From positions 22,483,792 through 22,547,791 of the forward strand of contig OZ038456.1 of assembly GCA_964036195.1 (NCBI GenBank): 64,000 nucleotides of DNA. The letters run 5' to 3'. The stretch is from Sphaerolaimus hirsutus (lineage: Eukaryota; Nematoda; Chromadorea; Monhysterida; Sphaerolaimidae). The position numbers were made by a program, and so were the translations under genes. The notes under the pieces were generated by a model, which made no database searches, was not told the origin of the DNA, and saw only the letters and a program-made list of their open reading frames with translations. Shown here piece after piece: positions 521-56,600 of this stretch (positions within the stretch are counted from its first letter, which is position 1; each line of letters begins with the position of its first letter).

Positions 521-718
521 GTAGGTGGTCACTGTAATTCTGAGTGATCTGAATTTTGAGTTGAAACTTTTGTTGTTGCATCAAGTTCAAGTGACAGCTT
601 TATGTAAAATAGTATGTAATGTAAAACTTAGAATCTTTGTTTAAAATACAAGACATAAGAATGAATGAAGATATGGCTGTGCAATTTGTCTTGAAACAAC
701 TAAACCATTATGCTCATA

Positions 719-1561: not shown

Positions 1562-1603
1562 TGCACAGTTAGGTACTAGGTAGTATTTATATGAAAAGCG
1601 CTG

Positions 1604-5447: not shown

Positions 5448-5450
5448 GGC

Positions 5451-8860: not shown

Positions 8861-8863
8861 GAC

Positions 8864-9368
8864 TAGAGGTGTTAAAATGTATTTACGTTTTCTTGAAAAA
8901 TACACATACTCGAGTACTTTGTGAATAGATATACCTATAGTTTAAAAGGTTCCCTTGTTCGTCTTTACGCGTACTTTTGAAATGTACATGTGTACAGAAA
9001 ATGTATTTTTTCAAATTTCAAATTGCAATTTTTTGTTGCTAAAAGAAAGAAACCTTGAAGCATTCATATATTTATCCCATAGAAGTAGTAGATAATCATA
9101 AAAATGACTTATGTGATCTCTTCCAGTGTAATACGCAGTTTTGACATGTAAAAAAATAGTCACCTTTACATTTTCCATTAAAAAGTACCCACTTTTATAT
9201 TTTCCATGAAAAAAGTACCCACTTTTACATATTCTATGAAGAAAAGTACTCACTTTTACATTTTCAATAGAAAAAAGTATTTTACATTTTCTGTACTCGG
9301 GGGTGAGTAAAAAAGTATTTTACATATACAGTTACTTTGAAAAAAGCTCAGTAATTTGAACAACTCTG
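8864..9368. mobile_element. hAT-like MITE, TAGAGGTGTT...CAACTCTG
   Basis: The left end TAGAGGTGTTAAAATGTA mirrors the right end TTTGAACAACTCTG. The interior has repeats of CACTTTTACATTTTC. The flanking 8-mers ACCCCGAC and GCCCCAAC match at six positions, compatible with an aged 8-bp target duplication. It is the same family as 17190-17508, which has a perfect duplication. Confidence 0.6.
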
Positions 9369-9369
9369 G

Positions 9370-13600: not shown

Positions 13601-13618
13601 GGTGAAGTGTCTTTCACA

Positions 13619-14051
13619 CAGGGACGTATCCAGGATTTTTGAGCGGGGGGGGCTGCTTGTTTACGGAGGCCGGCGAGGGGGGGGGGCTCAGCCCCCCCCC
13701 TAAAATTTTAGCTACATAGTGGCGGAAAGGCGCCATGGCGCTGGCGCCATTAGTAGGCGCCACGCCATGGCGCCATTGGCGTTGGCGTCAGCGCCATGGA
13801 ATGCTGTATACGTATGTAAATATACATACAAAACAGCAAAAAGCACAACATTGAGTGTATTTATTATGATTTGTGGCCACATGAAGTAAATCCGATGATA
13901 ATACCTTATATCTGGTGAAGAATGCGCGCTTGCGCGCAAAATTTTTTACGCTGACGTTGAAAAAGTCGCATTTTCCGGTCACTTTTTGGTCTCGCCCCGG
14001 GAGGGGGGGGGGCTGCAGCCCCCCCCCGCCCCCCCCCTGGATACGGCCCTG
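13619..14051. mobile_element. hAT MITE, 433 bp, perfect 8-bp target duplication
   Basis: The termini are CAGGGACGTATCCAGG and CCTGGATACGGCCCTG. The element is flanked on both sides by CTTTCACA (13611-13618 and 14052-14059), the 8-bp duplication typical of hAT transposons. The subterminal regions are G- or C-homopolymer rich, and a GGCGCCATGG palindrome cluster sits inside. No ORF for a transposase. It has inserted into a second palindromic element made of CTTCAC/GTGAAG phrases (about 13480-14275). Confidence 0.85.
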
Positions 14052-14059
14052 CTTTCACA

Positions 14060-31078: not shown

Positions 31079-31476
31079 GTATATGTGCATTGATTTGGTT
31101 GGCTGAAAATTGATATAGAAAGTTGATAAATGGAGCAAACAAGCATAAACGCATTGACAGAAATACATAAAGTATTTATCAAAGGTATTAGGATGCAATT
31201 GTAAATTAATGAAAATGGTCATAAGCACAACAAAAACGTGAAAAGTCAACATAAAACAAAACTCCCTTATCAAAATTATCATCAGACACAGACTTTTCCT
31301 ATAGAGAAACGGTCAATAAAAGCTACCTGTTATCATAAACAAACAATAAAACTATACCGCAATGTGCCCCAGAATACGAAAGTTTTTTTTGTCGCTTTTC
31401 TGTTTCCGTCTTATAACGTGAAAAACGCATTCTCTAATCGACAAAAATACCGCGGCAAAAAAACAACAACTGCGGA

Positions 31477-31539
31477 ATGGCACAAGTGAAAAATGGAGTT
31501 GTGAAGTTGGATTTAACGCGCCATACAGCGGATATAGAG
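31477..31539 (+). CDS. DPYD: DPYD first coding exon
   Basis: A 21-codon exon beginning MAQVKNGVV and ending TADIE, donor GAG|GTAAAT. It is too short for ordinary ORF calling. It was found because TADIE continues in phase 0 into DLLSLNPR at 32582, matching SADIESILALNPR of the vertebrate enzyme. Confidence 0.88.
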
Positions 31540-34500
31540 GTAAATTGATCATTTTTTGCATCCAACGTTGAAAGAAACTCACCCTTTTTCAGTTCCATTC
31601 ATCAGAATTATCGGCTGAAAGCGACTGTGGGACCTTGCATACGAATTTTCTCGTAAACATTTAGGTAGATTAAACGATCAGGGCCCAGTTCCGCAAATTC
31701 AGAAGTGAGAAGTAAAATGGCATATGCGAAGTTAAATTGAGAAGTGAGAAGTGAATTGAGAAGGAAATCGGCAAAAGCGAAAGGAAATTACTTTTTATTT
31801 TTTATTTTTTAACTTCGCTTTTGCCAATTTACTTACCATTTCAATTTGCTTTTGCCAATTTACTTGCCACTTCACTTTGCTTTTGCCAATTTCCCAGGGG
31901 TCTCCAAGATTTTGGCCCTCGCAGGGGCTGGATAGATTACAAATCGCTCCTCCGGAGGGATAGATAGCTGAAAAAAATTTCTGGGGGGGGGCTGGGGGGG
32001 GGGGCTTGGGGGGGGCTGGCGGGGGCACAATATATAGGCTTTTTCAAAGTTAAGAAGGCAGAAAGGCGAAAAAATCGCTAATAATCAGTTAAAAGTAGCC
32101 GAAAGTAGCTTTAAAATGGCTCAAAATAGGTATACAACCATGTATATAGCCGGAAAGCACGATTTTGAAGGTGAAAAACTATAAAAAGGTGCGAAAATTA
32201 GTGATTTTGAGCGAAAATTGGGGCAAAATTTCTCAAAAACCACTCCCGATAGATAGATAGCTGAGCGATTTGGTGGGGGGGGGGGGTCTTTTGGGGTAGT
32301 AGCCAAAAATTTTGCCTCGGGATAGATAGATAGCTGAGCGGCCTCCGGGATAGATAGATAGCTGGCCGATTTGGGGGGGGGGCAGCCCCCCCCCCAGCCC
32401 ACCCCTAGAAGACCCCTGCAATTTCCTTCTCAATTCACTTCTCACGTCTCAATTCAATTCGCATTTGCCATTTTACCTTCACTTCTCAATTTGCGGAACT
32501 GGCACCTGTACGACAAACCCGCGTGAATGACAATGTTAAACATGTATGCAAATCTGTTTATCTATATATCCAAACATTCAGGATCTACTATCCCTGAATC
32601 CACGGGTCAAAACCAACGCTACAGGGGTGCCAAGTGCGGAGACAAAAGCGGAGAAAAAACACTGGAAAAGGAACGCTGACAAAGCGTGTTCTGTGAGTTG
32701 CGGGGGGGGTTTAATTCGAGGTTATATTCAATTCATGGCGTCACTCAGTCGCCAACGATTTTTTCCTGTCTTGGCGCTGGGAAGGGATTCGTGTGAAAAG
32801 CACCGGGGGCCAATTCATCAAATTGACAGGGTGCAGTACCGTATTTCTTCTTATAGAACGGCATACCTCCAATAGAACGGCAGGTAAAAAAGTTGACGAA
32901 AAAATAGAACGGCGCTCTTCTACCAGAAGAAATACGGTAAGTGTTAAGCCGTGAACGGTATTCATACTCCAGTGACAAGTAAAATTATATGTGACTAGTA
33001 GATTTCTGAATAAAAATATTTTTTCACTGATATTCAGTGTACTTGTGAAATCTCTAACCACTCACTATTTCGTTTATCTACTACTTACCACTAGGGTTCA
33101 AACGGGACCGCGGTCCCGGTACATGGTTCGGCAAAAAGTCGGGAATGGGGCGGTCCCGGTCCCGGTCCCGGTCCCGACACCCCAGTCCCGGTCCCGGTCC
33201 CGGTCCCGACAATTAAAAAAAGCCAGTCCCGGTCCCGGTCCCGGTCCCGACCACCCAGTCCCGGTCCCGGTCCCGGTCCCGGAATTTCAAAGCGGTCCCG
33301 ACAAGGGATGGAAAAAACGTATCTTTCAAAAAATTTTGCCAGAAATGGCACTTTTCTAAAGCGATTTTGTAGGGACATCTAAAAATTTTTGCACGCAAGC
33401 GCGCAAATACCCAGCCAATGATTACTATGTATTTTTCCATAATGTGACAGCGTTAGAACGGTCCCCAACATGATTCTAGTACGAAATATAGGTATATATA
33501 GATACCTATATTATAGACATTGGCGCCAACGCCAGCGCCAATGCTGGCATGGCGTTGGCGCCTACAACTGGCGCCGCCCCCCCCCCTCCCAAAAAAATCC
33601 TGCGTACATTGCGTTTCATCATATATTCACAAGTTCAAGTGAAGATGGCAATGGAATACTGCTTGAATAATGTTATAAGAAAAGGCTAATACATTGAGAG
33701 TGGTCCTTCACACAGTGGAGGTGTGTGGAACAACATTGGCTGGATATTACATACCAATAAGGTTCAAACAATACCGCGGTGCCGGTACCTGGTTCGGCAA
33801 ATCCCAGTCCCGGTCCGGACCCCCCAGTCCCGGTCCCGGTCCCGGTCCCGACAATTGAAAAAAGCCAGTCCCGGTCCCGGTCCCGGTCCCGACCCCCCAG
33901 TCCCGGTCCCGGTCCCGGTCCCGACATTAGAAAATTTCTGGTCCCGGTCCCGGTCCCGGTCCGAAAAACTGGTCCCGTTTGAACCCTACTTACCACCTTT
34001 CATGTCACATTTTCACGGAACTTCAAATTAGACACTTCTACAATTGTGGAAGGCACTTCACGCATCAGAACACTTCCACACACATATTTACACATCTTGC
34101 TGCTAAAAATAAAGTGCGTGAAGTGTCTTTCTATAAAAACAAGCGTAAAGCACTTTTCAGCTACTTGAAGTCATCAATCAATAGTCATAAAAGGTGAAGT
34201 GAAGTGTTCATAAAAATACACTTCACAATACTTCACCACAAATAACAACAAAATATTTTATCTTTAACATATTCCTCAAACTTAAATACAATCACACTTT
34301 CCCAAAATCACCCATTTTTCACTGCAAAACACAGCCAAATACCGTATTTCCTCGAAATACCCCCCACGTTAACCCCCCCCCCTCAATATTTCCACTATGA
34401 AAAAAAACCCAAGGGTAATTCGAGGAAATACGGTAGCCCCCCCCCTCCACACAGACCTGCAAACCTCTCACAAATGACTTCACCGATGCAAAACACACAA

Positions 34501-37500
34501 CTTTGTCCGCCAGGGGGGCACTTAAAGAAGCGGCCAGATGTCTCAAATGTGCCGATGCACCCTGTCAGAAATCTTGCCCTACGAGATTGGATATCAAGGT
34601 TGTATTTTTGGAGGGGGTTTTATGAGTGTGGTCTTTTGACAACACAATTAGTGAAGTTTATACTCCGGTTACTTTACTCCTTGCATGCGTGGTTCCCGCT
34701 GGAAGTGTGCCAACGCTGGTTAACACATGCGAGTTTCATAAAAAAATGACAAAATTGATTGTTGTTATAATGTTATTCATAACCCTATTCACATCGATGA
34801 TTTTTTGTTCATTTTTACGGAAATCGCATGATTTAATAATTATTGGCACGCTTCCAACACGAGTCATAAATCAGTGCGAGGGCAGAGTATCATGTAAGCC
34901 GAGTATACTAGGTGCCACTGCACTGCCAGACCCTGGTAGGGTTCAAACGATATGACTTTTCGATATCGATATTCGATATTCGATATTTTTTCAAAATTTT
35001 CGATATCGATATTCGATATTCGATATTTTTTTCTGAAACTCGATATTCGATATCGATACGATATGGAACCTCGATATGGATATTCGATATTGAAAAATGG
35101 TCGATATTTGATATTCGATATTTCGATATTTTCGATATTCGATATTGTGATATGCTTTTGGTATAGCAAGGCATATTTCAAGTGGCATATTGTATTTTCA
35201 TGTGGTTGCACACATGTTTAATCATCTCTTTACTGAAATTTGAATGGTGCAAGTGATTTTAACAAGCTTTACATCACTCAATGGTAGAAAATAGAAGAAA
35301 AACATGATGAATCAAAGTGTATCAGACAAATAACAATTGGTAGATATTACAGTTCATCCTAACCTAATTGCTTAAGGGCATGTTGCAAAAAAGTACCTAT
35401 ATCAGCGTTTTCTGGCTTCAAATTTAGCACTCCAACAACAATGACATTACAAATACTGTACTTTTACTCATCAAATACAATACTATAAGCACATCAGATC
35501 AACCCTAAACATCTCAAAATGAAAATGAAAAGTAAATTTGGGGACACAATACAGGTTCGATATATCGAAAAAATGGTCGATATTCGATATCGATATTCGA
35601 TATTTTTTCAAAATTTTCGATATCGATATTCGATATTCGATATTTTTTCAAAATTTTCGATATCGATATTCGATATTCGATATTGAAAAATGGTCGATAT
35701 CCGATATTCGATACGATATATCGTTTGAACCCTAGACCCTGGTTAATGTCAAATGTCATACAAAGTGTGACAACTTGTGTAAAATGTCCTGTTAAATGTA
35801 AAATGTCAGGCAAAGTTTCAAAAAATATGTATAATGTCAAACATCCAACAAAATTTTTTAAAAACATTTTACAGGGCATTTTACTCAACTTGTGAAATAG
35901 TCTGGGTGTGGCACCTGATAAAGTTAATGGCATTTATCAATTTTTTATTGTCAGTATTGGTCAAATTTTCGTTTTTGCGGATCGGTAGCTAAGATACCTA
36001 CTAAGATTAAAAGAAAGTCGGCCTGTAAATACCTGTAAGTGAGCGATATCTTCAAAATGAAACTCAAAATTCGCCAAATGTCATGTCCTTCCAAAATTTC
36101 CTAAATCTCCTAGATTTTACCACCCCCAACCCCCCAAACCCCCCAGGCCTTCATAACATGCATCGGCAACGGGAACCCCTACGGCGCGGCCAAAATCATT
36201 CTCAGTGACAACCCCCTTGGTCTAAGTTGCGGCATGGTGTGCCCCACTTCGGATCTGTGCGCTGGGGGGTGCAATTTGCACGCCAGTGAAGAGGGGGCTA
36301 TTAATATTGGAGGGCTGCAGCAATGGGCTGTTGAGGTGGGGGGGGTATGGTATCGATATACCATATTTGCTTGAATAATTCCCCTGCCTTGAATAATTCC
36401 CACACTTGAATAGTCACACAGTGTTAGATGAGTGCAGAAAAATGACCCATCCTTAAATAATCCCCCTTTTAGGGATATGAACTTTTTGTTGTGTCGAATT
36501 TGAACAAATATGGCATGTTATTTTGTTGATTAAGCATATTTTTATTAGGTCTAAAAGTGATCAAAACCAACTCAAAAATAAAATTCCAGACATTCAAACA
36601 AATGAACATCGCCGCAAAAATGCAACCAGAAATTGTGGAAGCGACAAAATCGGATTCAAGTTATGATCAAAAAATTGCGCTAATTGGATGCGGGCCAGCC
36701 AGCGTTTCTTGTGGCACATTTTTGGCAAGATTAGGATACAGAAATGTGACGATTTTTGAGAAGAATGATGTCACAGGAGGATTGAGGTTGGTCAGAAAAA
36801 ATACGGGGGGGCTATTCAAGATTTGTAGAATACCTCATGTTCAAGTACATACCGTACCTCATGAAATTACCCCTGAAATATACCCAGGTGGCAGTCCCGC
36901 ACCCTGTAAAGTGTAAAGTAAAGCGTCAAATGACATGTGAAATGTCTTACTTTGTGCAATGTCATGCAAAATATTAAAAAGTTCGGAAGAAAATATTTTT
37001 ATTTTTTTATTTTAATAGACAGTTTACATGACATTTGTCACTTAAAGCTACCTCTTTGCCTTCAGGGTTAACAATAACCCTGTAAAATGTCATGCAATGT
37101 GTCAAAAGTCATGTAAAATGCCAACTTAATTTTATTTTTTACTGATCTTTTGACATTTTTACATGATTTTAGGCACTTTGCATGAAATTTGACATTTGAC
37201 AGGGTCTGGAAATGACAGGGTCAGAACGCATATTTTACACACAAAAATGTTACACTTTCAGCACAACGGAAATTCCGGAATTCCGGCTACCCTATGAAGC
37301 TGTGAATTTCGAGATACAGTTGATGAAAGATCTGGGCGTCAAGGTGAGACGAAAAATCATCGAAATGTGTAATATATATTAATACTTCAATATACCGTAT
37401 ATCCTCGAATAAGACCCCATGGGAGTTATTTTTTCGTCAGAGTCATTCAAGGGGAGGAGTTATTCGTGGGGGTCTTATTCGAGGATATACGGTACTCCAA

Positions 37501-40500
37501 GAAACTCGTCCAGTCAGTTTATGATAGAAAATGCGACTATTTTGAAAACTATATTTTCATTTAGGAGAGAAATTATTGTGACGAAAAAATTCCATTTGCA
37601 GATCGAAACCGGCCGGGCGCTGCACGAAAATGACGTCACTGTAGAAAAACTCCAGAAAGATGGCTTCAAGAGCATTTTCATTGGCATTGGTTTGTGAAAA
37701 AAATTTTACCGTATTTAGTTGAATCGATGTGAATTACGGCAAATCCTTGAATAAGACCCCCTCGAATAACCCCCCCCCCCTGTTGGCGAGGTGAGGAAAT
37801 AATCACCCCCCCCCCTCGAATAATTCCCCCCTCTCGATGAAAAGGATACAATACAAAAATACAAAAGAATATTAGCCTACAGCAGCGACAGCAGATACGT
37901 GATGTGTATGCAATGTGAACACTTATTTTTGTTGTTGTTGGACAGTTAAATACCTGAATTACATGAGTTGACAGACTGCGCCGAAGAACGAATTACATCC
38001 AAGTTTTCTGAGAAAAAATACCCCCCCCCTCGAATAACTCCTCGCTTGAATAACTCCCCCATCAAAAACTTCTGACTAACAAATAACTCCCATTCCCGTG
38101 GGTTCTTATTCGACGATTTAGGGTAGTCTAGGGGGGGGGGAATTATCATTTCATAAAAATTTTCAACTCATTTCACGTAATCATGCTTTATTTAAATCAA
38201 AACTAATTTTGTTCAAATAAAAGAACAACAAATTTATTTTATGCATAATGTTCACATTCAACGGCAGCAGCGGGGGAATTATTCAAGGGGAGGAATTATT
38301 CGAGTAAATACGGTAGTTCTCAACCACTAAAACCGAATAAAACCCCTATCCACATTCTTCACAGGCCTCCCAGAGCCGAAAATAATCCCCGCATTCGAAA
38401 ATCTGACCCGAGAAAACGGCTTTTGGACATCGAAATCATTTCTACCTCTGGTATCGAAAGCGACCAAAATCGGCTCTGAAAAATCGTGCGCGTGCAAAAT
38501 CGACGCGAAAAAGTTACCGAAATTATTGGGCCGCACCGTAGTTTTGGGCGCGGGGGACACCGCATTCGATTGCGCCACTAGCGCTTTGCGGTGCGGCGCG
38601 AAAAGAGTTACGGTGGCTTTTCGCAAGGGGTTTACCGGAATCAGACCGGTACCGGAAGAGGTCAGATTAACTATTTTTGTTTAAACGTCAACTTAAACGT
38701 TGTAATAGCATTTTTTTGTTTTTTTACTTCACAATACTCGCATGCGTTAGTTATTGCTGGCACGGTGCCAACGTGAACTGCGCATGAAACGCGCAATGTC
38801 AATTCCGAAAAATCCGTAAACAGGAAAGAAGCAAATTTCTATAAACATCAATCTGTCAACTAAAAGAAACCGTCAATTCAGATGGATCTCGCGAGGGAAG
38901 AAAAATGCGAATTTTTACCGTGCGTCGCTCCAAAACAGGTGATCGTCCAGGGCGGACGCATCGTAGCCATGGAATTTGTGCGCTACGAAGAGGTAAATTT
39001 TTTTACAGTTTTGAATTTATTTCAGCGAGTTCACCAGCGACCGCTGATTCAGTAAGTGGACAAGTGATAAGAAAAGTGGGAATTGTAAATAAAGTTGAGT
39101 ATTTCAATTGTAAGTGGCAACTTAATTTGCTAAATGATGCTAAATATGATACTAAATACAATGTCAATGTAGCCCAACGCTTATAACTTTTCTGTTGATG
39201 GTAGTAAATTACATTATTTGTCACTTGTACATTTAGTTGTCACTTTGCCTACAGTTTATGACTTTACTTACACTTTTCTTGTACTTGTCCACTTCTTGCG
39301 GAATTGCCACTTGTGGCCAGTTCCGCAAAATGAAAAGTGAGAAGTGAAATGGCAGAGGCGAAGTAAAAAAAAGAAAAAGTAATTTCTCTTCGCTTTTGCC
39401 AATTCACTTGCCGTTTCACTTGGCCTTTGCGCTTTTACTTCGCCTTTGCCATTTCACTTCTCACTTCTCATTTTGCGGAACTGGCAGCAGATCAATTTGT
39501 ACACGAGTCTCAACTTTACTGTAAACTCAAAAGACAACTTAGCATACTTGACATTTTTACTTGACATCAAACTTGACAAAACCAAAACAACAACAGAATG
39601 ACGATGGCTCGTGGGTGGAAGATGCGGAACAAACGGTGCGCATAAAATGCGACACAATTATCAGCGCATTCGGATCGAGTCTGTATGATGAAAAAGGTAA
39701 ATTCAGCCATGCAAATCAATTGACAGTCAACTGAAACAATGTATTTGAAAATCAGAGGCCATTTCAAGACAGTGTAAAATCCATGTAAAATGTAAAATTT
39801 TATTTTACTGGTTTACCTACCGGTCGTTTGACATTGTACAGGGCATTTTACATGACTCTTGATATTTTGCATGATATTTGACATTTTACAGTGTATTTTG
39901 CTGGGTCTTGGAGTGGCAGCAGACATTAACACAAAAGATACAGTGACTATGTCATCTCAAAGTGATTCAAACAACATTCAGTTGACAGCCATACCACCGT
40001 CAACTAAAGTAGCACCCCCTTTCAACCCCTGTCAACCCCCCAAATTCTCAGTAAAAACTGCCATGTCGCCCATCACCCTAACCCGGTCCGGTCTGCCGCA
40101 AGTGTCGCCCCAATCGCAACAGTCCATTTCGCACGCCCACGTTTTTGCGGGGGGTGACTGCGCGGGGGTGGCTGAGACCACTGTGGAAAGTGCGAATGAT
40201 GGAAAAATTGCAGCGTGGAATATGCATAGGTGCGTTGGGGGGGGAGTTTTTTAAAAAATATGGAAATTAGTGTGCATTTATCTGTTAACCAAGTTGCAGT
40301 GATACACCCTGTAAAGTGTAAAGTCACGTGTCGAATGTCATGTGAACTGACATACAAATTTGTCAAATTTTATTTCATTTTATTTTAATACTCATTTTAC
40401 ATGACATTTGACACTATACTTTACACTCCACAAGGTACGGGACTGCCCTCGGGTGACACTCCCAGATCTTGAAAAATGTCATGTAAAATGTCACATTTTC

Positions 40501-43500
40501 ATTTATTTTCTACCAGTCCTTTCACACTTCACGTCGTTTTACATGACGTTTGACACTTCGCATGTCATTTTACAGGAATTCAAAATTTCCCACCCCAAAA
40601 AATCGCAGATTTCTCCAAAATTCATCGGGCAACAACAGGCACTTCCCATCGGAACCCGAATTGCCAATGATGCACACCGCAATTGACGAAATTGATTTGA
40701 GCGTGAACATGTGCGGCTTGAAGTTCGAAAATCCATTTGGATTGGCAAGGTGCCAAGTTTTTGGATTTGTTTTTATGTGTGAATTTGGATAGGTAGAAGG
40801 TTCATTGTGCACACGGAAACTAATTAACGCGGCAATTGATGTCAGTTGTCAATCAAATTTATCATTGAAAGTGCCTCAAAATGTGAATTGTGTGCTAAAT
40901 AATACTGTAAAACCTCGAATAAGCCCTCAATTGACAACTGACATCAATTGACGCCGTCTAAAATAGTCTATTAAATGCCTTCATTGTAAAATTGGCAATT
41001 ATCCAAAAACATACCTAAATACCACATAACTTTCAGCGCGCCGCCCACCACAAGCGGACCAATGATAAGACGCGCATTTGAAGCCGGCTGGTCATTCGCA
41101 CTGACGAAAACATTCTCACTGGATAAGGTTTGTAACATTCGAAAACTCATAAATCAGCTTTGAACGCATTCGAGTTTACCGAAATGAGTTATTTTAAATC
41201 TTAATCAACTGACAATAAACGGCGATCTCATTCTGGTAAACTCAAATGTGTTCAAACAGATTTGTGAGTTTTCAAAAAATTTTAAACTAGTGTTTGTATA
41301 GCCAGTAAATAATTAATGGTAAAATATGTGAAAGTCTAAACCCCACTTACTACACCCCTCCAAATAAACCGTCAACTAAAAAATATCCCAGTCACAAACT
41401 CAAATAACCCCCCCCCCCCAGGACCTAGTCACAAACGTGTCCCCCAGAATTGTCAGGGGCACGACCAGCGGGCAGCACAATTACGGGCCCCAGCAGGTGC
41501 CAATTCCGCTAGTTGACAAGTGACGAGAAAGTGGTAAGTGGTAAGTGAAGTGACAAAGTGACAAGTGACCAAACAGTGACAATTTAGTAACAATCAGTGA
41601 TGGTATTGCGTCATTTGAGGGCGCCAAAGCGCTCTGCGCCATGCCACCATTTTCTCTGGCGCTTTTCCATCACTAGTGAATGGTTAACTTACGCTTGCCA
41701 TTTATAAGTTGTCTTGCAACCTGGTGGCAGTTCTGTTAGGTCGAATATCATGCAAAATGTCGCAAAAATTTGTAAAATTTCGTGTAAAATGTCAATAGTT
41801 TGGTGCTAAATTGTTTTTAAATTTTTTGACATATTTCATGACATTTAACACTTTAATTTACACTTGACAAGGTGCGGGACTGCCCCAGACTCAAATTCAC
41901 TTGTCACTTTTCTCACCACTTACCACTTTTCTCCTTACTTGTCCACCCGCGGAATTGAGCCCAGGGCGCATTTCTAAATATCGAATTGATTAGCGAAAAA
42001 ACTGCTGCTTATTGGTGTAGAACTGTGGAAGAATTGAAGAGGGATTTTCCGGAAAAGGTTTGCTGGCTTTTTGGATATTAGATTACGGTATTATGGTACC
42101 GTATATTCTTGAATATGGCCCCCGGAGTTATATGCGGGAGATATTGATGTGGAGTTAATGGCCCTACCCACACTAGTTTTCACCGTGACTTGTGTGAAAA
42201 CTGAAATGGCCACATCGCGATATTCATCCTACTCTTATCGTATGCTATATGTGTTTTAGTTTTCAAATTTTCAAACTTTAACTTTCATTAATTTAAATTC
42301 AAACTTGATTAAAATTGAATCATTCAACCGTGTTCATTAATTTGCATTTGAAAAAATTTCAGTTTTTACACGAAGTCACGGTGAAAACTAGTGTGTGTAG
42401 GCACATTGCACTATTTATTAGTGAGTAGAATGTTTGATAGAGAGGCCAGTATGGAAGCGCAAAAAAATGCCACAAAAAGTGTCACAAATACGCCAAGTGT
42501 CACGTAACTCAAAGTTCCCGGTAAAATCCCATTAAGTTTACATTTTCCCTGATACTTGACAAATTCCGCCACTGACATTTATCCGACATCTAACATGACA
42601 TTTGACAAATTTGCGTGACGTTCGACATTTTACTTGACACTCTACAGGGCGCGGGACTGGCACCAGGATACTTACAACCTACAAAATCGAGACAAAATAG
42701 CAATATTTCAAATACACATTCACAAAAACCTTCCAACACAGATTGTAATAGCGTCGATAATGTGCAGCTATGACAAATCTGACTGGATTGAATTGGCAAA
42801 AATGGCTGAGAAAGCTGGCTCAGATGCGCTCGAATTGAATTTGAGCTGCCCACATGGAATGGGTGGGTTTTGAAAAAAAAAAACATTTTTTTTTACTTTT
42901 TTGGTTTAATCAAATGAAATAGAAATCAAAAAGTGACTTTTTGAGGCAGTTTGAAATCAGTGAAAATCTAGGAACATGTAAAAAAGTAAAATCATTGAGC
43001 AAAAATCTTAATATGCCTGAAAATGAGAAAACGCATATAAAATGTAAAATGGCAAACAAAGTGCTGAAAGTCTCGTAAAATGTCATGAAAACTAGCAAAC
43101 TTACAGTGTAAAAATTGACATTTTTCAGAGCTTTTATATGACATTTGAAACATTTGACATTTTACAGGGTCAGGGAGTAGCCCAGCATCACATATTCAAA
43201 TATTGTACAGTTTTAACCAACACAAAAATAACCTGGTAGAATACAACAATAAAAAAGTTTCTCTTCACCCTACAGGAGAACGGGGCATGGGTTTGGCATG
43301 CGGCCAAGATCCGGAATTAGTCAGAAACATTTGCACCTGGGTCAGAGACGCGGTGAAAATACCATTTTTCGCAAAAATGACGCCAAATATTACGGATGTG
43401 ACGCAAATTGCCATGGCAGCAAAGGAAGGTAAAAATGGGACAGCGAAATACTTTTTTAAAAGTTTTTAGGAAATCATCTTCAAGTGACGATGAATGCGAA

Positions 43501-46500
43501 AAAAATATTATAAAAGTATGTTAATGTTAGATGAAATAGTTTTAAAGAAATTGAAAATAATATGAAAAAATGAGGGCCAGCCACACAATCATGTAATAAA
43601 AAATCGTAAGTAAATAAATGTAATAAAAATAATAAAATCATGTAATAAATAAACCATCAAGTTACTCTCAATTAAACATTAGCATCGAAAATGCTATTTG
43701 GCACAGCAAAACGCAAAAAATACATCAAAAAACACACACCCCTTCCAAAAACTCGCAGGAGGAGCCGATGGGGTGACAGCAACAAATACAGTGTCCGGTT
43801 TGATGTCCCTCAACGCAAAAGGTAATTTTTAGTGAACCTTGGGGGCAGTCACAGTCCCGTAAAATGCCCTGTAAAGTGTCAAAAGTCATGTAAAATGCCC
43901 GGTAAAATGGCAAAAGTACGTTTGCCTTTCTACCGGGCATTTTACACGACTTTTGACACATTGCATGACATTTGACACTTTACAGGGCATTTTACATAGT
44001 CTGGGACTGGCACTTGCATGTACATCTACCAATTTCTTCTAACAGAACGGCTTACCTCCATATAGAAGGGCACCTCCAATAATTGGGCAGGTAAAAAGCG
44101 ACGAAAAAATAGAACGGCGCCCTGCTATTATAAAAAATGTAAAAAAATACTTCATGGGCTGACTTGTCAACCAATAGAACGCCACTTCAAGGTGTAGAAA
44201 GCACAAGAGGCGAGAAGTTGCCATGAAAACTACCTATATATCTAGCTCAAACAAGCATGAAATAGGCAATAAGGTATAAAAAATTGCCATTTTAAAACTG
44301 AAAATACGCAAACGACCCAAAAAGAACCCCCCCCAAAAACCCCAGAAACCCCCCAACCCCCTCCCCACTCCAGGTCTCCCCTGGCCGCGAGTAGGCTCCC
44401 AATCCCGAACCACATTCGGGGGCGTGTCGGGCAACGCCATACGACCCATAGCCCTTCGCGCGGTGGCCGCTATCGCCCGACAAATGCCCGACTACCCTAT
44501 TTTGGCTACTGGAGGGGTGGAAAGTGCGGAGACTGGGCTCATGTTTTTGAGGGCTGGGGCCAGTGTGATACAGGTGATTTTTGGGGGTTGGGGGTTGTGA
44601 GGTTTTTTGGGGGTGGAAATATTTATGTGTGGTGGCCGACGGTGAGGTAAGGTAAATGGTGCGGTACGGTAAATTATGCTACAACATGTCTGTCCCCCTT
44701 GTGGTGATGTGTAAGTGAAGTGTCAAATGTCATGTACAACGTCAAACAAATTTGTCAAATGTCGTGAATTTTATGAAAATTTCAGTAATACAATATTTCC
44801 TTTATATTTCAATTGAAATTTTACATGACATTTGACACTTTGCACTTGACAGAGTGCGGGAAACCTCAACCAACTTAAACTTCAACCAAAACCTTTCAAT
44901 TCTCAAATTGCATTTTTGAAAACATTCATTATAAATTAAATGAAATTCATCTTCAAATTTCAATCCCCAAACTTCACAGATCTGCTCAGCGATTCAAAAC
45001 CAAGACTTCACTCTAATCGACGATTACTGTAGCGGCTTGCGCGCTTTATTGTATCTCAGTAAAGTGCCTAATTTGGAAAATTGGGATGGACAAATTCCCC
45101 CGGTGAGAAATCACCAGAAGGGAAAACCTTTGATTGCGCAGGGAAAGGTGAGGTGGTTTTTATTTTGCACAGATATTTTTACGCAGGGTTTTGCATGTGG
45201 AATTTCAGCACCAATGTATGAAAATTTGCGATTTTGAGCAAAAAGTATGGTTCAAACGGGATTGACTTTTCGGGATCCGGATCAGGATAGAGACCACTAA
45301 ATCCCGAAATTTTTCGGGATTCGGGATCAGGATCGGGATCGCGTTTGGACCCGAACCGAACCGCGGTTCCAAGTATATTTTGGAACCGAGAATTTTGAAA
45401 GCCCCAACAACCCTAACCCCCACCCCCCAACACCCCCATTGGAGACTCGTGTTGTAAAGTGTCTATTCAGCGATCTAAAACTAGACAACCAATTAGGGTT
45501 CAAACGGGATTGACTTTTCGGGATCGGGATTGGGACCACAAAATCCCAAATTTTTCGGGATTCGGGATCGGGATCGGGATCCCGTTTGAACCCTACAACC
45601 AATCCCCGCTCCCACAGTCTCTACCCGCGTTTGGTCCCTACAAAACCGCGCGCGAGCAATTCGAATCGGAAATGCTGCGGGAAAGTAATTATGAAGGCGG
45701 AGCCAACGATGCTGCAACGCGCCCGGCTTTTGAAGCTGTTGGCAAAGTGCCAAGTGTGAATGTAAGTTTGCGTGTGGTGTGATCGAGTTTACTTTTGTAG
45801 GTTTTGAGGGGGTTATAGGCAATGATAAATAGATAATGAGATTTAATATTAACATTATAGACCGCCCAATTGGTATTGCTTTACATTGCTCCAATTCAAG
45901 GCAATAAATATCATTTGTTATCATACAGTCATGCATTAAGAATTTTTAAAAAATTAAAAAATAAATTGATTATTTTCAAAACTATCAATACACAAAAAAA
46001 AACAATCAAAAACGCAGGAAATCGTCGCTTCAGCGGTGCAGCGCATCGGCACTTACGGAGATCTGGACAACACGAAACAAGTGGTCGCACTTGTCAACGA
46101 TGTGAGTACGGGGCGCACTTGACAAATCACTTGACAGGTGATTGAACAAGTCACTTGACAAGTCACTTGATAAGCTTCGAACTTCGATGACGACACTTTG
46201 CGGCGGAAAAAGTAGTTTCAAGTCCTAACCGAGCGCGCTGGGCCAGTTACGCAAATTGAGAAGTCAGAAGTAAAATGGCAAATGTTAAAAGATGAGAAGT
46301 GAATTGAGAAGGAAATTAACAAAAGCGAAGGGAAATTACTTTTTATTGTTTTATGTCGATTTTGCCAATTTACTTGATACTTCAATCCGCTTTTGCCAAT
46401 TTTCTTCTCAATTCGCTTCTCATTTTACTTCGCACTTGCCATTTTACATCTCACTTCTCAATTTGCGGAACTGGCACATGGTGCCGGTTCCGCAAGTGGA

Positions 46501-47886
46501 AAAGTTAAGAGTTAAGAGTTGAGTAAAATGATAAATGATAAGTTAAGAGTAAAGTTAAAAGTTAAGAGTTGAGTAAAATCATTTGTCGTTTTACTCAACT
46601 CTTCACTCTTAACTTTACTCATAACTTGTCATTTGTCATTTTACTGAACTCTCAAGTTTTAACTCTTAACTTTTTCCACTTGCGGAACTGGCCCCAGGTC
46701 AATGACTATGGCGAATCCTCTAAAAAATTCTTTAGTTTTTTTTGTAAAATAGCTTGTCGAATTTCGGATCTTTTTTAGAAATAGTTAGTTTTCGAATATT
46801 CGAATATGGCTAGAAAATTCAGTTTCCGTTTTTCTAGTGGTGGAATAAAAATTCGAAATTTCCAAAGATATTTTTAAAAATTCATTTATTTTCAAATTTG
46901 TGTTTGCCATCGTCACTTATCAATCAAAAAGAAATAGACTGAAAACGAAAAACAAATCAACTGAAGAAAAAACAAATTAAATGAAAATAAAAAGAAAATA
47001 AAAAGTAAATGAAAACCAAAAATAATAAATTCAACCCCACTCACCCCAGGACCTGTGCATAAATTGCGGCAAATGCTACATGACTTGCAACGATTCCGGA
47101 TACCAGGCGATCACATTCGATCGGAAGACACATTTGCCAAAGGTAAATTTATTAATCTCAAATAAATTTTGGTTTGATTTGATTTTCGCAGTGTGGGATG
47201 ATCCTGAGAGCAAAATAAATGAAATTTGTGAAACGGCGAATTCTAATTTTCACGTTAATTAATGATAAATTAAGCGTGAGCGTGTAATTACAGGGTTTTT
47301 GCTTACGGTAACAAATTGACGGTAAATGGTACGGGAAATTTTCGCTTTCGCAGTTGTCGGGAATAATAAATATTTAGGCTTTATTAAGGTGTAGAAGGCA
47401 GAAACGTGAGAGAAATCGCTATTTTGAAAATGGGGTAAAAAGTTTTGAAAATACGCAATTTTGAGCAAAACAATGGAACAACTTTCTCAAAAATCGCTCA
47501 AGTTAGCTTGGAATAATTTGCAAGGTGATTCAGGGATACTAATAGCCAAGTATCTTTACCTCGGTACAGACAGCTAAGCGGCGTCTTGGAAACTAGATAG
47601 CCAGCTAATTTTGGGGGTAACGCACCCCCCCCCCCCCCACTGGGGACCCCTTTACCCCCAAAAACCCCCCAACCCCCCCCCCCCCTACCCCCAGGTAACA
47701 GACGACTGCACCGGCTGCACTTTGTGCCACTCTGTGTGCCCCGTGCCCGACTGCATCACCATGGTGGACAAAAAGATTGAGCACGTGGTCAAAAGGGGTG
47801 TCGAGCCGAATATGCCCAGGAGGGGTAGCTTTTTGCCCGCGCAGGATAGCTCCTTGGAGGGCGGGGTTGGCCCTGAGGAGGGGTAG
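31477..47886 (+). CDS. DPYD: Dihydropyrimidine dehydrogenase (NADP+), complete, 24 exons
   Basis: Exons: 31477-31539, 32582-32692, 34455-34598, 36147-36335, 36590-36786, 37262-37343, 37602-37689, 38365-38660, 38882-38992, 39597-39696, 40052-40229, 40609-40749, 41037-41127, 41422-41496, 41965-42057, 42742-42862, 43276-43428, 43759-43821, 44374-44573, 44980-45147, 45618-45761, 46018-46101, 47050-47142, 47695-47886. All phases agree and give 1058 residues (human 1025). The enzyme reduces uracil and thymine with NADPH, the first and limiting step of pyrimidine breakdown, in the cytosol. Visible parts: N-terminal Fe-S cysteines C87, C90, C95, C99, C134, C138, C144, C148 and Q164; FAD loop GCGPAS; NADPH loop [20 protein letters not shown]/pyrimidine barrel with [17 protein letters not shown], catalytic Cys about 702; two C-terminal CxxCxxCxxxC clusters ([22 protein letters not shown]). 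The start ATG lies in GCGGAATGG and leads to [13 protein letters not shown], as in the human N-terminus. Nearly every intron contains MITEs. Confidence 0.96.
31681..32507. mobile_element. Family-3 MITE with nested G-rich element in DPYD intron 1
   Basis: The left end GGGCCCAGTTCCGCAAATTC and right end AATTTGCGGAACTGGCACC are inverted. Next to each are AGAAGTGAGAAGTAAAATGG-type phrases. The interior (about 31915-32400) holds G homopolymers and repeated GATAGATAGCTGAGCGG phrases, probably a second element inserted into the first. Confidence 0.65.
32835..32940. mobile_element. MITE of the TACCGTATTTCTTCT family, intact ends
   Basis: It starts TACCGTATTTCTTCTTATAG and ends with CAGAAGAAATACGGTA. 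The interior reads AGAACGGCATACCTCCAATA. It lies in DPYD intron 2. Confidence 0.75.
33092..33988. mobile_element. hAT-like element with GGTCCC arrays, 897 bp
   Basis: Inverted termini TAGGGTTCAAACG and CGTTTGAACCCTA are perfect over 13 bp. CTTACCAC flanks both sides (33084-33091 and 33989-33996). Each subterminal region is filled with tandem GGTCCC/CCCGGT units. A second partial terminus (AAGGTTCAAACAATACCG) lies inside at 33759, suggesting an element nested in its relative. No transposase ORF; the long Pro-Gly or Pro-Val frames here are artefacts of the repeat. Confidence 0.85.
34341..34435. mobile_element. 95-bp hairpin MITE, intact TACCGTATTTCCTCGAA ends
   Basis: Perfectly inverted TACCGTATTTCCTCGAA and TTCGAGGAAATACGGTA surround a C-tract and TTTCCACTATGAAAAA. 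It lies 20 bp upstream of DPYD exon 3, so its C-tract side may contribute to the pyrimidine-rich 3' end of intron 2. Confidence 0.8.
34659..34907. mobile_element. 249-bp MITE, TATACTCCGG...GAGTATA
   Basis: Imperfect long inverted ends (TATACTCCGGTTACTTTAC and the complement of ATCATGTAAGCCGAGTATA). The second copy is at 50072-50321, similar over the whole length. Confidence 0.75.
34937..35734. mobile_element. hAT-like element with CGATATT arrays, 798 bp
   Basis: Perfect 13-bp inverted termini TAGGGTTCAAACG and CGTTTGAACCCTA, flanked by GACCCTGG on both sides (34929-34936 and 35735-35742). It sits in a Family-1 MITE. The subterminal arrays are degenerate TCGATATCGATATT repeats, unlike the GGTCCC arrays of its neighbour at 33092. 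No transposase ORF. Confidence 0.88.
36888..37212. mobile_element. Family-1 MITE in DPYD intron 5
   Basis: Left end GTGGCAGTCCCGCACCCTG, right end GACATTTGACAGGGTCTGG, with an intervening duplicate arm that starts near 37077. Confidence 0.6.
37394..37493. mobile_element. Hairpin MITE with ACCGTATATCCTCGAATAAG ends
   Basis: Starts ACCGTATATCCTCGAATAAG and ends CTTATTCGAGGATATACGGT, a near-perfect palindrome of about 100 bp with GGAGTTATT phrases inside. It belongs to the wider TACCGTA-ended group, as do 36357-36475, 37720-38312, 49180-49303 and 49992-50362. Confidence 0.75.
39316..39491. mobile_element. Family-3 MITE in DPYD intron 9
   Basis: Left end GGCCAGTTCCGCAAAATG, right end CATTTTGCGGAACTGGCAG, with AAAGTGAGAAGTGAAATGGC arms and their complement. 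Confidence 0.7.
39755..39922. mobile_element. Family-1 MITE in DPYD intron 10 ending in CAG
   Basis: The right terminus GGGTCTTGGAGTGGCAGCAG ends at 39922 and leaves a frame-compatible 3' splice site (phase 1, open through 40229). Homology favours the downstream acceptor at 40051 instead. Using the MITE site would insert 43 residues. Confidence 0.6.
40452..40578. mobile_element. Family-1 MITE in DPYD intron 11
   Basis: Starts GGTGACACTCCCAGATCTTG and runs to GCATGTCATTTTACAGG. The TTTTACAG within its right arm at 40575 is another frame-compatible 3' splice site 33 bp before the acceptor I assign at 40608. Confidence 0.6.
41497..41964. mobile_element. MITE that coincides with DPYD intron 14 (candidate introner)
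   Basis: The intron starts GTGCCAATTCCGC, followed by TAGTTGACAAGTGACGAGAAA and GTGGTAAGTGG. It ends CCACTTACCACTTTTCTCC, then TTACTTGTCCACCCGCGGAATTGAGCCCAG. These ends are inverted repeats over about 45 bp, and the termini coincide with the splice sites. A Family-1 MITE (41722-41892) and a GGCGCC element (about 41605-41670) are nested inside. The exons join GPQQ to [10 protein letters not shown], in the middle of human exon 14 as I recall its boundaries. Confidence 0.75.
42166..42399. mobile_element. MITE with CACACTAGTTTTC termini, second copy
   Basis: Starts CACACTAGTTTTCACCGTGA and ends TCACGGTGAAAACTAGTGTG. Relative of 4470-4704. It lies in DPYD intron 15. Confidence 0.75.
42440..42666. 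mobile_element. Family-1 MITE in DPYD intron 15 ending in CAG
   Basis: The right terminus GCGCGGGACTGGCACCAG ends at 42666. The downstream sequence is open and in frame with exon 16 (25 extra codons), so this terminus could act as an alternative 3' splice site. Homology supports the acceptor at 42741. Confidence 0.6.
43276..43428 (+). CDS. DPYD: DPYD exon with the catalytic-loop cysteine
   Basis: Encodes [14 protein letters not shown], then [11 protein letters not shown]. The Cys of GLAC is the general acid that protonates C5 of the pyrimidine. All residues of the loop that I know to be conserved are present, so the enzyme should be active. Confidence 0.92.
43838..44012. mobile_element. Family-1 MITE in DPYD intron 18
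   Basis: Left end GGCAGTCACAGTCCCGTAAA, right end ACATAGTCTGGGACTGGCAC. Arms of GTGTCAAAAGTCATGTAAAAT and its complement. Confidence 0.65.
45494..45595. mobile_element. hAT-like element with GGGATC arrays, 102 bp
   Basis: TAGGGTTCAAACG and CGTTTGAACCCTA termini flank a core of TCGGGATC units. CAACCAAT is duplicated on both sides (45486-45493 and 45596-45603). An older diverged copy is at 45247-45352 and another relative at 56646-56782. It lies 22 bp upstream of DPYD exon 21. Confidence 0.88.
46247..46698. mobile_element. Two adjacent Family-3-type MITEs in DPYD intron 22
   Basis: The first (46247-46479) runs GGGCCAGTTACGCAAATTGA to AATTTGCGGAACTGGCAC. The second (46483-46698) runs GGTGCCGGTTCCGCAAGTGG to CCACTTGCGGAACTGGCCCC. 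The second has AGTTAAGAGT arms. They share termini but not arm sequence. Confidence 0.7.
47695..47886 (+). CDS. DPYD: DPYD last exon with C-terminal Fe-S cluster
   Basis: It follows a C-homopolymer tract ending CCCCCAG. It encodes [18 protein letters not shown] for the second C-terminal 4Fe-4S cluster. A tail with VKRGVEP resembles the vertebrate PKRGVPL end but continues about 28 residues further to a TAG at 47884. The tail extension is rich in Gly and Glu and looks lineage-specific. Confidence 0.9.
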
Positions 47887-50669
47887 GGTGTAGGGTTGGT
47901 TTGTAGGAAGTTTGTGGGGCTTGGGGCTGTAAAATGTCATGGAAAGTGTCGTGGGAGTCATGTAAAATGCCCTGAAAAAGGGTAAATGATTATTTGACAT
48001 TTTACAGTTAAAAATATTTGACATTTTACATGACTTAAAACACTTTGCATGACATTTGCCATCCTACAGGTTCAGAGTAGATTTGTCGATATCAGCTTTT
48101 TTTCAATTGATATTTTTGGGCGTTACAAGACAGTACTACAGCGTTTGGTCGTTTTATCTGTTCATATTTGAGCGATTTTGCATTTGATGATAGTTCGCAT
48201 TCAGGAAAATTGTCATTTCATGTGAAAAATCCGCAAGTGGACAAGTTAATATAATACAGGAAAATACATGAAAAGTACCAAAGTGATATGAAAAATTTAG
48301 TGGCGCGATAAGCAAAAACAGGTAAATTTGTTACTGAAAATCCGTCGTATTTAACCAGATTTAAGGTTTACCTACTTGAAACTTTTTGTTTCCAATATCA
48401 CTTGTCAACTTGAGGATTTGGCACCAGGCTATTCAGGACTACATTGATTTTTATTCATGATTAAATAGGTATTGTAGCTAACATTTGAATTGTCTGCTTT
48501 TTGTATAAATGTCTTAAATGGTTCATCCAACCCAATTCACTAGTGTTCTGCAATAGAAGTGTATACCAAATGATGTTATAGTAAAAATAGTTATTTTCTC
48601 GATTTTTTATGCACTTACATCCACCACAGGGACTGCCCTGCACCCTTTCAAGTGTCAAAAAGTGTTTCAGGTTACCAGAATGCAATTGCCAGACACTTGA
48701 ATCTGACACTTGACAGGTGTAGAGCACTTTACAGGGTTCGAAGTTGTGCCAACATTTCAGCTTAAATTGATACCACTATACCATTACCCAGGCACCAATG
48801 TTAGGATTAGTATGGACGTTAAGCAAACTGAATATATTTAAATGTATTTACATTGACACATTTTACATTTTAACAAAAAAATCATCCAATAATTTCTGTG
48901 AAAATGTTTATTTATATTTTATTGAAAAATAAACGGAAGGATAACACTTTGTAATGAATGCAATTATGTAATTTCATACGTAATTTATGAGACAATATCG
49001 AAAAAAAGCTTTGTGAAAGTCACCGCACTAAAACTATGGAAAACATCACGTAACAAAATTGAGGAAAAAATAAAGTTATTTGCATAATTTGACGTACAGA
49101 AAAACGCACGACCACTCAGTGGTCCAAATTGCATAGGAAAACGATTTTCAATAATAATTTTATCACTTCTAATTTCGTAACTGCTCGATTAAGCCCCCTC
49201 TTTGAAATTATTTTTTCGTATTTTTTAACTGTGGAATTATTCGAGGGAGTGTTTTTCTAGGAAGGGATTTATCAAAGGTTGGTTTATTCGAGCATTTACG
49301 GTATGTAGGTGCCGGATTAATTATGTACGACCACCGAAAAAAAAACAGCTTAGGTATAGTCATATTGGAAAATTATTTACATGAAATGAACATTACAAAG
49401 AACAAAAAATGGAGAAAAAATGAACCAGTTTCAGACTCTGTACAAAATTTGCATAGAGGCAAGTGTATCCAAAAATTTCAGCTGCCGTATTTGCATAAAT
49501 AAAATAAGTGAATGCATATAATGTCGACGCCACAGTCTCACAAGTGAATGCGCAATAATTTTGTCAAGGCATATATATACGTGATCAATGTTTTTGTCTC
49601 GAACGAAACGATGCATAGATATGTACTTTAAATTCATAACAGGATGATCAAAAAGCGATCAAAAATGCTATCTATAAAAAACGCTATAGGCACATCAGAG
49701 TAGGTTCAATTAGGTAAACAATATGCATAGGTAATAGTTCTATAGCAAGAGACAACGATGACAAAAAAACCCTCAAAAAACCTAGGTAGGTTACCGTATA
49801 CGGCGTAATAAAATTAGCATCGAAACTAAACGAATAATGGAATGGAATTGGAAAAGATTTCGGTGCAAGCGGCCGCGCTGAGATGAATATGGAATTCTCG
49901 TGAATTTTTTTATCGAAAACTCAATATAAATATATATACGTCAAAAATTTACAATTACGAAAACACTTACAAAGTTACGAACATTGAAAATACAGTAAAT
50001 TCTCGAATAAGTCTTTTTTCATACTTTATAGACTGAGGAGTTATTCAAGGGGTATTGTTCCTCACTGACAATATACTCCGGTTACTTTACACCCTGCACG
50101 TATGGTTTCCGCTGGAAGTGTGCCAAAGATGGTTAACGCGTGCGAGTTGCACAAAAAGATGACAAAATTGATTGTTGGAGTAATGTAATTCATAAACATA
50201 TTCACATCGATGAATTTTTTTCATCTTTTTATGGAAATCGCATGATTTGATAATCATTGGCACGCTTCCAACACGAGACATAAATCAGTGCGAGGGCAGA
50301 GTATCATGTACGCCGAGTATACCAGTGGCAATTATTCAAAAAGGTTATTCGAGAATTTACGGTATTAAAAGAAACGAAACTTAAAGAAATAGGCACCAGC
50401 AAATCTGGCGATTTAGAATAAATATCGTTACCATATCCAAAATGCTGAATATAAACAAAAATATACTGGAAAACATCAAAAAGGCAATAACACAGCACTT
50501 ATGCTAATTCAAGTGATCTCATGTGGTAGGCGTTTTCTGAATTTCTAATCGTAATTCGCAATCACGATTTCTAATTCATTCGAATATCATCTCCAGATCG
50601 ATAAAATCTAATTAATGCAAACTATAATTAATCTTCCAAAAAATGGAGAGAAAAAATAGTCGGCCAAAT
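47887..50669. other. Convergent 3' ends of DPYD and the zinc-finger gene
   Basis: DPYD 3' UTR (+) and zinc-finger 3' UTR (-) face each other here. The tract contains Family-1 MITEs (47925-48072, 48635-48745), a TACCGTA-type element (49180-49303) and a nested pair at 49992-50362. Candidate poly(A) signals are ATTAAA 48460-48465 (+), AATAAA 48928-48933 (+) and AATAAA on the minus strand at 48907-48912. No coding exon seen. Confidence 0.5.
49992..50362. mobile_element. TACCGTAAATTCTCGAATAA element interrupted by a second MITE
   Basis: The outer ends are ACAGTAAATTCTCGAATAAG and TTATTCGAGAATTTACGGTA. The inner insertion 50072-50321 is the second copy of the element at 34659-34907. Confidence 0.75.
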
Positions 50670-53600: not shown

Positions 53601-56600
53601 GGCTGCAGTTCACTGATTCGTCCAAATGTTTGCTGTTCAGCAGTGATGGAGAAATTGTGCCCTGGAAAAAATGAGCGTTTTTCATTGTGAAGAAAGACGT
53701 AAAAATGTGAAAGAGAAGTAATTTGAGACGTGAAGTAAAAGTAAGTAAAAAAGTATAATAATTCTTTTGGCGTTTTCTTGTCACTTGCCATTTATCCTAC
53801 ATCCTTTGTCAAGAAAATGTGAAAACATGTCAAGGTGCTGAAAATGTGTCAAGCTTTGCAAGAAAATGTTAAAAAACGTTTTTGACTTTTTCTTGCCACT
53901 TCACTTCTCACTTAGTTAAGTTCACTTTTTTGAACTTTTTACTTCTCCCTTATCTTTTTTGGTTCCCCACCCTCAAAATCGCACCCAACCCCCCACCCCC
54001 CCCCCCCAAAAAAAAACAAGGCTCTCAACCCCCAAAACACCCCATTTACCTGCAACAGCGCACCCCCCTCAGTAGCACTCTTCGCCAGAATCTTCACATC
54101 GCCCGCGGTTCCAGATCTAGCCATCGACTGCATGTGAATGTGCAGGGAAGTTTTATCAGGGAAAGCCCAATTGCAACAGCGACACAGAAACATTCGGGAT
54201 ACTTGATGGGCCCTGAACATGTGCGAGCGCAGGGTTTCGTTGCCTGGAAAGGGGGGGTTGTTTGAGGGTGAGGGGTTGTTTGAGGGTGGGGGTTGTTTGA
54301 GGGTGAGAGGTTGTTTGAGGGAGAGGGTTGTTTGAGGGAGAGGGGTTGTTGGAGGGTGGGGGTTGTTTCAGGGTGAGGGGTTGTTTGAGGGTGGGGGTTG
54401 TTGGAGGGTGGGGGTTGTTGGAGGGTGGGGGTTGTTTCAGGGTGAGGGGTTGTTTGAGCGTGATGTGTTGTTTTGGGGGTTCGATTCCAGCCATGGTTGA
54501 TTGTTTCTGAATGTGTTTTTTATCTGTCTTTATTTTTGTTTTTATCTTTTTTCTGCTCGCTGAATGCTGGGCATTTAATTTCAAAGTGATAAGCAGTTTA
54601 TGCAGCAAAATGACAAGTAAATCTCTATGAAATTACTTTTCACTTGACACTTATCACTTATCGCCAATCACTTTCCTTGTCACTTTTCCGTCAGTGGAAT
54701 TAAGCATTGTAAATATTTAGTTGCAATGCCAACATTTATCAGGCGCTCTTATGAGCATGTGACCTTTTTTGAAACGCTACAAATGTCGCTACAATTCACA
54801 CGGGTTAAATATAACGATTAGCGGTACGTTTTTCTGTCCATTGGGGACAATTCAACAATTGGACAAGTGCCAAGAAAAGTGTAATAAGTAAAACTATGTG
54901 TCAAGCCGACTAGTAATTTTTAAGTGAATATTAAACTGCCAAGTGAAATTACATGTGACTTAGGTTCACTTGTCACTCGACTTTCCACTTCACTTATCAC
55001 TTAGCACTTTTCTTGTCACTTGCAGTATTGGCACTAGTAAGCTAAATATATCTGTTCAAAGCGACAAATAGCACCGACATTTTTCAAGCGGGGGGTGACT
55101 CATGAAACAAATGCCACTTTTACTACTGAACGGAACGCAAAAGGCAGCCGCCCAGAACAGAAATAAATTCACAATAAATAGATAGCCACAACTTGGCATT
55201 CCGGAGATATTTCTCACATAAATATAAATAGAAAATTGAACACGAGATAAGCGGGTATGAAAAAAAAGAAATGAATGTTTTAATGTAAAAAAATCAGTGT
55301 GATTTTTGCTTGAATCTTTTGAAGCCATTGAAGCTTTTTAACAAAAAGGATATTTTTCTATAATTATGGACAGCTACTATGATCCGGTCGCGAAGTATGA
55401 TTACTTTTTCAAGGTGAAAAGGCGACATTTTTTCTCATCAACGTACTAACAAACATTGAAAAAACTTTCATTTCGCACAGGTAATCTTGCTGGGCGACAA
55501 AACGTCCGACAACATAACGTTTATCGAACAAGCCGCGGGAATCAAACCGTACGAAATCAGCTGCCACCAACGTACAAACGTACAAACGTGCACTAAATCA
55601 GTGCGGACGAAAAACGGCCATGACGTTAAAGTGCTACTCTGCAGTGCATCCGCGGAACACTGTGAGTCACCATCAAACGTCTTTCACACGTTTAAACGTT
55701 CAGTTCAACACGTTGCCCACCCTGTTTTACTCAGTGCTGAACGGCTTCGCCGAGGACTTTGAGCTGACGGGCGCGCATGGCGCTGTTATTTTGACCAAAG
55801 ACGACTGTGGAAACGTTTGCGACACGTTTTGTGATAATATTTTGGCAAGACATTGCGATTTGGATGAAATTTGCGTTGTGAAGCTGAACATCGACAATGA
55901 TCAGTTAGTTTCATTGTTTTGTCTTTCGTGATAAAATTACCACTTGTTTCCACTTGTTACCATCAACAATTTTTTGTCACATAAATATGAACTGGTACAA
56001 ATTCCCAAATTACTTTGTAATCTCTTTACAGTGAAATTTCACAAAAAAATTCTGAAAAATTCACAGCGCCTTGGACTCCAGTAAAGTTGATGAAATTCTG
56101 AGAACTCTCTGCGATCGGATGGTGGACGCAAGAGTTTTGGCGAAGTGCCAATTAAAGAGAACACGGTGCAGTTTGAATACGGAATTTATGAGATCCAAAG
56201 CAGTTTGGTTGACTGAAAAGCCGAAACTTTGGTTCTGCGATTGAATTGAAAAGTGACATTGTATATAATTATTGTAAATAAGTTGTGCAGTGATATTATT
56301 TATCTTCTAAATATTTGTCATTTTTACTTTACCCCACCCACACATTTTACATTAAGCATTTGAGGCCTACACAATTGTAAATACAAGTCTATTTTACTTT
56401 TCGTATTTGATTTCAGCACGGGGAAAAATTCCGTCGACGACCAAATAATACGCTGCAAATAAATAGCGCGGTAGCGCAATTTTGAGGGCTACCATTTATG
56501 ACAACAGTATATAGCAACGGTACAAAATTTGCCGCGCTGCACAGAAATAGTTGTCGCTGCCGCACTCACGCTTCACGTGAAATTGCACGGTGTCACGACA

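Follow-up and report, generated by a model that had tools for sequence, protein, structure and literature searches.

The intron at 41497..41964 of a DPYD gene is very likely born of a transposon. Its donor and its CAG-flanked acceptor coincide, to the base, with the boundaries of a MITE, and we consider it highly probable from these ends and from the coding sequence around them that the element inserted at a coding-strand CAG within one DPYD exon and that conventional GT-AG splicing now excises it at its own termini. An origin by MITE insertion, as the original prediction had proposed, is strongly supported by both element ends lying on splice sites, by the exact rejoining of conserved residues, and by a human codon that is continuous at this place.

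The gene was recognized as DPYD by its match to pig DPD and by a homologue search, in which 7,987 candidates were scored and 2,755 homologues were found at E <=0.001. The best 120 of these 2,755 were 60-69% identical and therefore include no close relative. Our model covers 36147..47886 of the plus strand in the 64,000-nucleotide stretch of DNA analysed here (the window) and comprises 21 exons and 20 introns, supported by a junction scan, PDB matches and homologues; earlier exons, upstream of 36147 and with an ATG at 31477, were read by eye only. Exons were modelled with frame-compatible GT-AG pairs, and all of them are open. Two trees, which took in 45 and 43 of the best 120 homologues, place the protein beside six named nematode rows and one further row, with support of 100/99 in both and on a long branch (0.87 and 0.85). 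This nematode placement is a lead only. A larvacean origin, which came into question because larvaceans have MITE-born introns, is not supported. Rfam and tRNA scans of the whole window gave no matches.

The intron is 468 nt long, made up of the element and a last CAG, and splits an exon into halves at 41422..41496 and 41965..42057 of the plus strand. The first half lies on the D581 side of human exon 14, has its outer edge at mammal c.1740 and ends in CAG; the outer edge of the second is at mammal c.1905. The donor reads CAG/GTGCCAATTCCGC, with 41497 as the first base of the intron, and the acceptor GCGGAATTGAGCCCAG/, with its end at 41964, so that the junction context is ...CCCCAGCAG/GTGCCAATTCCGC ... 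GCGGAATTGAGCCCAG/GGCGCATTT.... Both the sequence and the coordinates of the intron were thus as first described. Near the exon edges, 41496/41965 is the sole frame-compatible GT-AG pair, giving YGPQQ/GAFLN, and among the 16 GT-AG pairs that keep the frame open over the block 41422-42057 it obtains the top score against pig DPD (218). The runner-up (203) uses an in-frame donor at 41512, inside the element, and would insert VPIPL. Since all three frames across the intron carry stops, the otherwise open DPYD gene needs the intron to be removed.

The two ends of the intron are inverted copies of each other far beyond chance. When the first 80 nt were aligned to the last 80 nt in reverse complement, a left arm at 41501-41561 and a right arm at 41897-41957, pyrimidine-rich in the transcript, matched at 83.9% identity over 62 columns. 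The alignment score was 70, compared with a mean of 16.1 and a maximum of 42 in 20,000 dinucleotide shuffles, none of which was as good, and with 12 to 26 for the 19 other introns of the modelled gene. Arm pairing begins 4 nt from the donor and 7 nt from the acceptor. The inverted repeat had been noticed from the outset, although its arms, given as about 45 bp, turn out to be longer. Taken alone, the 9-nt core CAATTCCGC shows no enrichment in the window, with 22 matches at <=1 mismatch vs 17.0 expected and as many in 16 of 100 shuffles.

A terminus profile trained on other elements locates the element boundaries. Eighteen elements in the window were paired by eye, and a 14-position profile was trained on the 34 termini of the 17 others, leaving out those of this intron. 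Its value was 18.6 at the donor end and 10.0 at the acceptor end, just ahead of the last CAG, both at offset 0, so that the splice sites fall on the element boundaries to the base; only 0.00005 and 0.00072 of window 14-mers, respectively, score as high. Window 14-mers scoring >=8 number 179, vs 70-94 in ten Markov resamplings, and many of the 179 are training termini while about 26 lie in GGTCCC arrays. The MITE accordingly occupies 41497..41961 on the plus strand (463-465 nt including a nested insert), from the first base G of GTGCC to the last base C of GAGCC, and the CAG at 41962-41964 is flank, outside the element. Arm alignment and profile thus agree with the proposal that the splice sites are the inverted ends of a MITE.

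By both measures this end signature occurs in one of the 20 modelled DPYD introns, that at 41497-41964: the best profile values of the 19 others are 4.5 and 2.6, and no second transposon-born DPYD intron was found among them. Two further places in the gene recall element ends. The intron at 40750-41036 (mammal c.1649), off the known human positions, begins GTGCCAAG and has profile values of 4.5 at the donor and -13.1 at the acceptor; it is possibly a decayed transposon-born case, or the likeness may be due to chance. Around the DPYD start codon (31477), the sequence at 31466-31483 is similar to an element right end, TGCGGAATGGCAC, with a profile value of 12.5 at 31483 on the minus strand.

The mechanism can be outlined as follows. 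Insertion into an exonic CAG would duplicate it, leaving the locus as CAG/GT...CAG/. The first bases of the element would then be the donor GT, one CAG copy (presumably 41494..41496) would be the exon end and the other (presumably 41962..41964) would supply the acceptor with its AG, while the pyrimidine-rich right arm would stand in for a polypyrimidine tract. Both CAGs agree with the CWG flank consensus of the family. However, this apparent duplication counts as no independent evidence of insertion, since splicing itself favours both CAGs: all 20 introns end in CAG, as against just two of the 20 upstream exons. A different MITE jumped into the first element later. This nested, F2-type element at 41724..41886 has termini with profile values of 16.3 and 12.3 and an interior resembling other F2 copies, and its presence means that the insertion is neither brand new nor the newest event at the locus.

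Was the intron gained, or is it ancestral? By alignment to a vole protein (P0018) it maps to mammal c.1812. By the human exon ends, 12 of the 20 DPYD introns lie at known human positions, one of them only within a codon, and the remaining eight, 41497-41964 included, lie off them. The seven other off-position introns are without MITE ends, whether judged by arms or by profile. Absence in human alone therefore neither dates the intron nor proves a recent gain; for the gain it is the element ends that count. Human DNA itself was described as uninterrupted here, within the 165-bp exon 14, and published data bear this out. Skipping of human exon 14 removes 165 bp, and the donor is c.1905+1 (PMC3547229), so that the exon spans c.1741-1905. 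The forward primer given there for a genomic exon-14 amplicon, TATGGCCCTGGACAAAGCTC, encodes Y-G-P-G-Q-S across the intron site; human DNA is thus continuous at that codon. The pattern GP-x-Q-x-x-[FY]LN is present in 103 of the best 120 of the 2,755 homologues, and of the 17 misses 15 keep the same spacing and two are unreadable. The exon halves rejoin conserved residues with no codon gained or lost, and this conserved spacing, together with the splice-pair scan, bears out the exon join GPQQ/GAFLN. Given exact rejoining and a continuous human exon, the intron was most likely gained, which is how we would grade the original "probably gained".

A different history would have an older intron at this codon take up the MITE and then lose its own sequence on both sides, leaving the MITE to fill it. 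With eight of the 20 introns, this one included, at positions not known in human, ancient introns that vertebrates have lost are conceivable, and MITEs are indeed present inside other introns. But this history needs two deletions, both ending exactly at the element boundaries (offset 0), and besides CAG no non-element intron sequence remains. We regard it as improbable, and insertion into an exon as the better account.

The splice signals of the intron are poor. Its acceptor score of -2.2 is the lowest of the 20 introns (median 12.0), since the outermost bases of the element come between the tract and the AG, and its donor is tied 18th. The right arm nevertheless ties for second place among the 20 introns in pyrimidine fraction (0.69 over 42 nt). 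Twelve F1 and F3 ends that were measured have pyrimidine fractions of 0.62-0.71 when read outward, and element orientation might therefore matter little. The intron ends are predicted to form a strong hairpin (-185.4 kcal/mol vs a shuffle mean of -121.7), which may hide the splice sites. Weak sites fit a young intron and equally fit poor splicing. The insertion could accordingly be a harmful or polymorphic allele, spliced poorly or not at all, in a damaged DPYD copy: the weakest acceptor of the gene, a weak donor, a hairpin at the intron ends and stops in all three frames are what such a copy would offer. Against this, the modelled exons are open, and arms diverged to 84% together with a nested second element indicate that the insert has persisted. 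We hold a damaged copy to be a little less probable even than an older intron. Chance likeness between intron ends full of short repeats, for which the AAGTGG/GACAAG repeats of the arms and the unenriched core might speak, can be practically dismissed, as no shuffle equalled the arms and both ends match, at offset 0, a profile trained on other elements.

When the 18 elements, this one included, are taken together, their 36 termini give the inward consensus CWG/GKGCCARTYCC. In the flank, C is found in 27, W in 29 and G in 29 of the 36 termini; in the element, base 1 is G in 29 and base 3 is G in 32, while base 2 is divided between T (20) and G (16). It had been suggested that the terminus already carries both the CAG and the GT needed for splicing. 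The GT does lie within the element, but the CAG belongs to the flank, and with T at base 2 in 20 of 36 termini only some ends landing in CAG would bring both signals. Identical flanking 3-mers occur in 5 of 18 pairs vs 2.99 in re-paired flanks, which is not significant (p 0.13); pair F2_15854 was scored as a miss in the fixed frame, and its CTG/CTG would match if the right end were shifted. Other duplication lengths were tried and set aside. A 4-bp duplication (CAGG, CTTG and similar) was seen in 5 of 18 pairs at no more than 1 nt from the assumed ends, vs 2.2 expected from mispaired flanks, and in 0 of 18 pairs in a fixed frame; it was rejected on account of the mirror symmetry of the CWG flank at the two ends. 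An 8-bp, hAT-like duplication gave no exact match in the 18 pairs in any of six frames tried.

Relatives of the arms, at 76-89%, lie at 32435-32508, 48398-48425, 54966-55022 and 24505-24559, and the window holds no recent sister copy. Of the "active source family" first proposed, the relatives stand, as related elements do sit inside other introns, but with best arm matches of 76-89% they do not demonstrate activity. A Pfam search of 1-14998 in two of six frames gave no match and thus no transposase, and among 20 chosen window ORFs there was one zinc-finger match and no transposase. The zinc-finger match, of C2H2 type, falls short of the Pfam cut-off (E 0.0012) and lies at 53942-54367 of the minus strand, in a further gene. 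At 39308-39316 and 46476-46483, neighbouring elements pair head to tail with 3 nt between them (TTG and ATG), as if one target copy were shared. The window also contains inverted termini GGGTTCAAACG...CGTTTGAACCC, with nine matches vs 1.1 expected and as many in 0 of 100 shuffles. Copies at 33094-33986, 34939-35732, 45248-45352 and 45496-45593 enclose differing simple-repeat arrays (GGTCCC, TCGATA, GGGATC), apparently forming an element family whose microsatellite interior varies by copy.

The NuwaI group of the PHIS (Harbinger-like) superfamily is recognized by CWG duplications and by TIRs whose first bases are usually GGG, and it is described as found only in animals (Han et al., 2015; PMC4482050). 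To judge from its termini, the chances that our element is of this Harbinger-like NuwaI type are about evenly balanced. It shares with the group CWG at the flanks and an animal host. NuwaI TIRs are 12-61 bp long, compared with arms of about 62 bp here, where the start is G-K-G. An autonomous NuwaI partner would carry a DDE transposase and a Myb/SANT protein; in the parts scanned here no transposase or Myb/SANT gene was found, and the CWG duplication is not significant. The hosts listed in PMC4482050 are fish, beetle, crustacean, mollusc and anthozoan, with no nematode, and its passages on the group report no intron role for NuwaI.

In the introners surveyed by Gozashti et al. (2022; PMC9860276), TSDs and/or TIRs have been described. 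As in those, a nonautonomous DNA element with TIRs fills the intron here and leaves mRNA length unchanged, with one splice signal coming from the element and the other from the target; Figures 2B and 2C of that paper show each signal arrangement, with 4-bp TSDs. In contrast to them, our case is a single intron, with a presumed 3-bp CWG target, in an animal host. An introner in the sense of the original prediction would belong to a family that gives rise to introns again and again; here one of the 20 introns examined bears the end signature, which makes it a candidate introner. The survey found introners in just two animal groups, animals and land plants making up 835 of its 3,325 genomes (PMC9860276). 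The introner elements of Amoebophrya (PMC7789003) likewise have inverted repeats at their ends and a potential hairpin joining the exon edges, and their short direct repeats across exon-intron boundaries can be likened to this intron. However, Amoebophrya is a dinoflagellate with largely non-canonical splice sites, whereas here the host is an animal and the splice sites are GT-AG. Intron gains in nematodes (PMC9169325) would share the broad host group if our tree placement is right, but for the Caenorhabditis gains that study reports no source sequence, whereas here the source is visible. The titles and abstract beginnings listed in searches of the openly licensed PMC literature name no Harbinger- or NuwaI-derived introner.

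Sources of new animal introns are rarely seen, and a transposon landing in an exon is a rarely documented route of gain. With element ends still on the splice sites and a human exon that is continuous, the DPYD intron most probably displays this step from transposon to intron. A broader and more tentative idea, which we rate as somewhat less than probable, is that Harbinger-like NuwaI MITEs are ready-made introns here and that a transposon group targeting CWG can seed introns genome-wide. If a GTG end inserts at a CAG within an exon, the outcome would be CAG/GT...CAG/, whichever way the element faces, provided that GT is kept at both ends. If so, animal introners would be tied to a named transposon group. 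If this type of element does duplicate CWG, target choice alone would explain how insertions arrive with splice signals.
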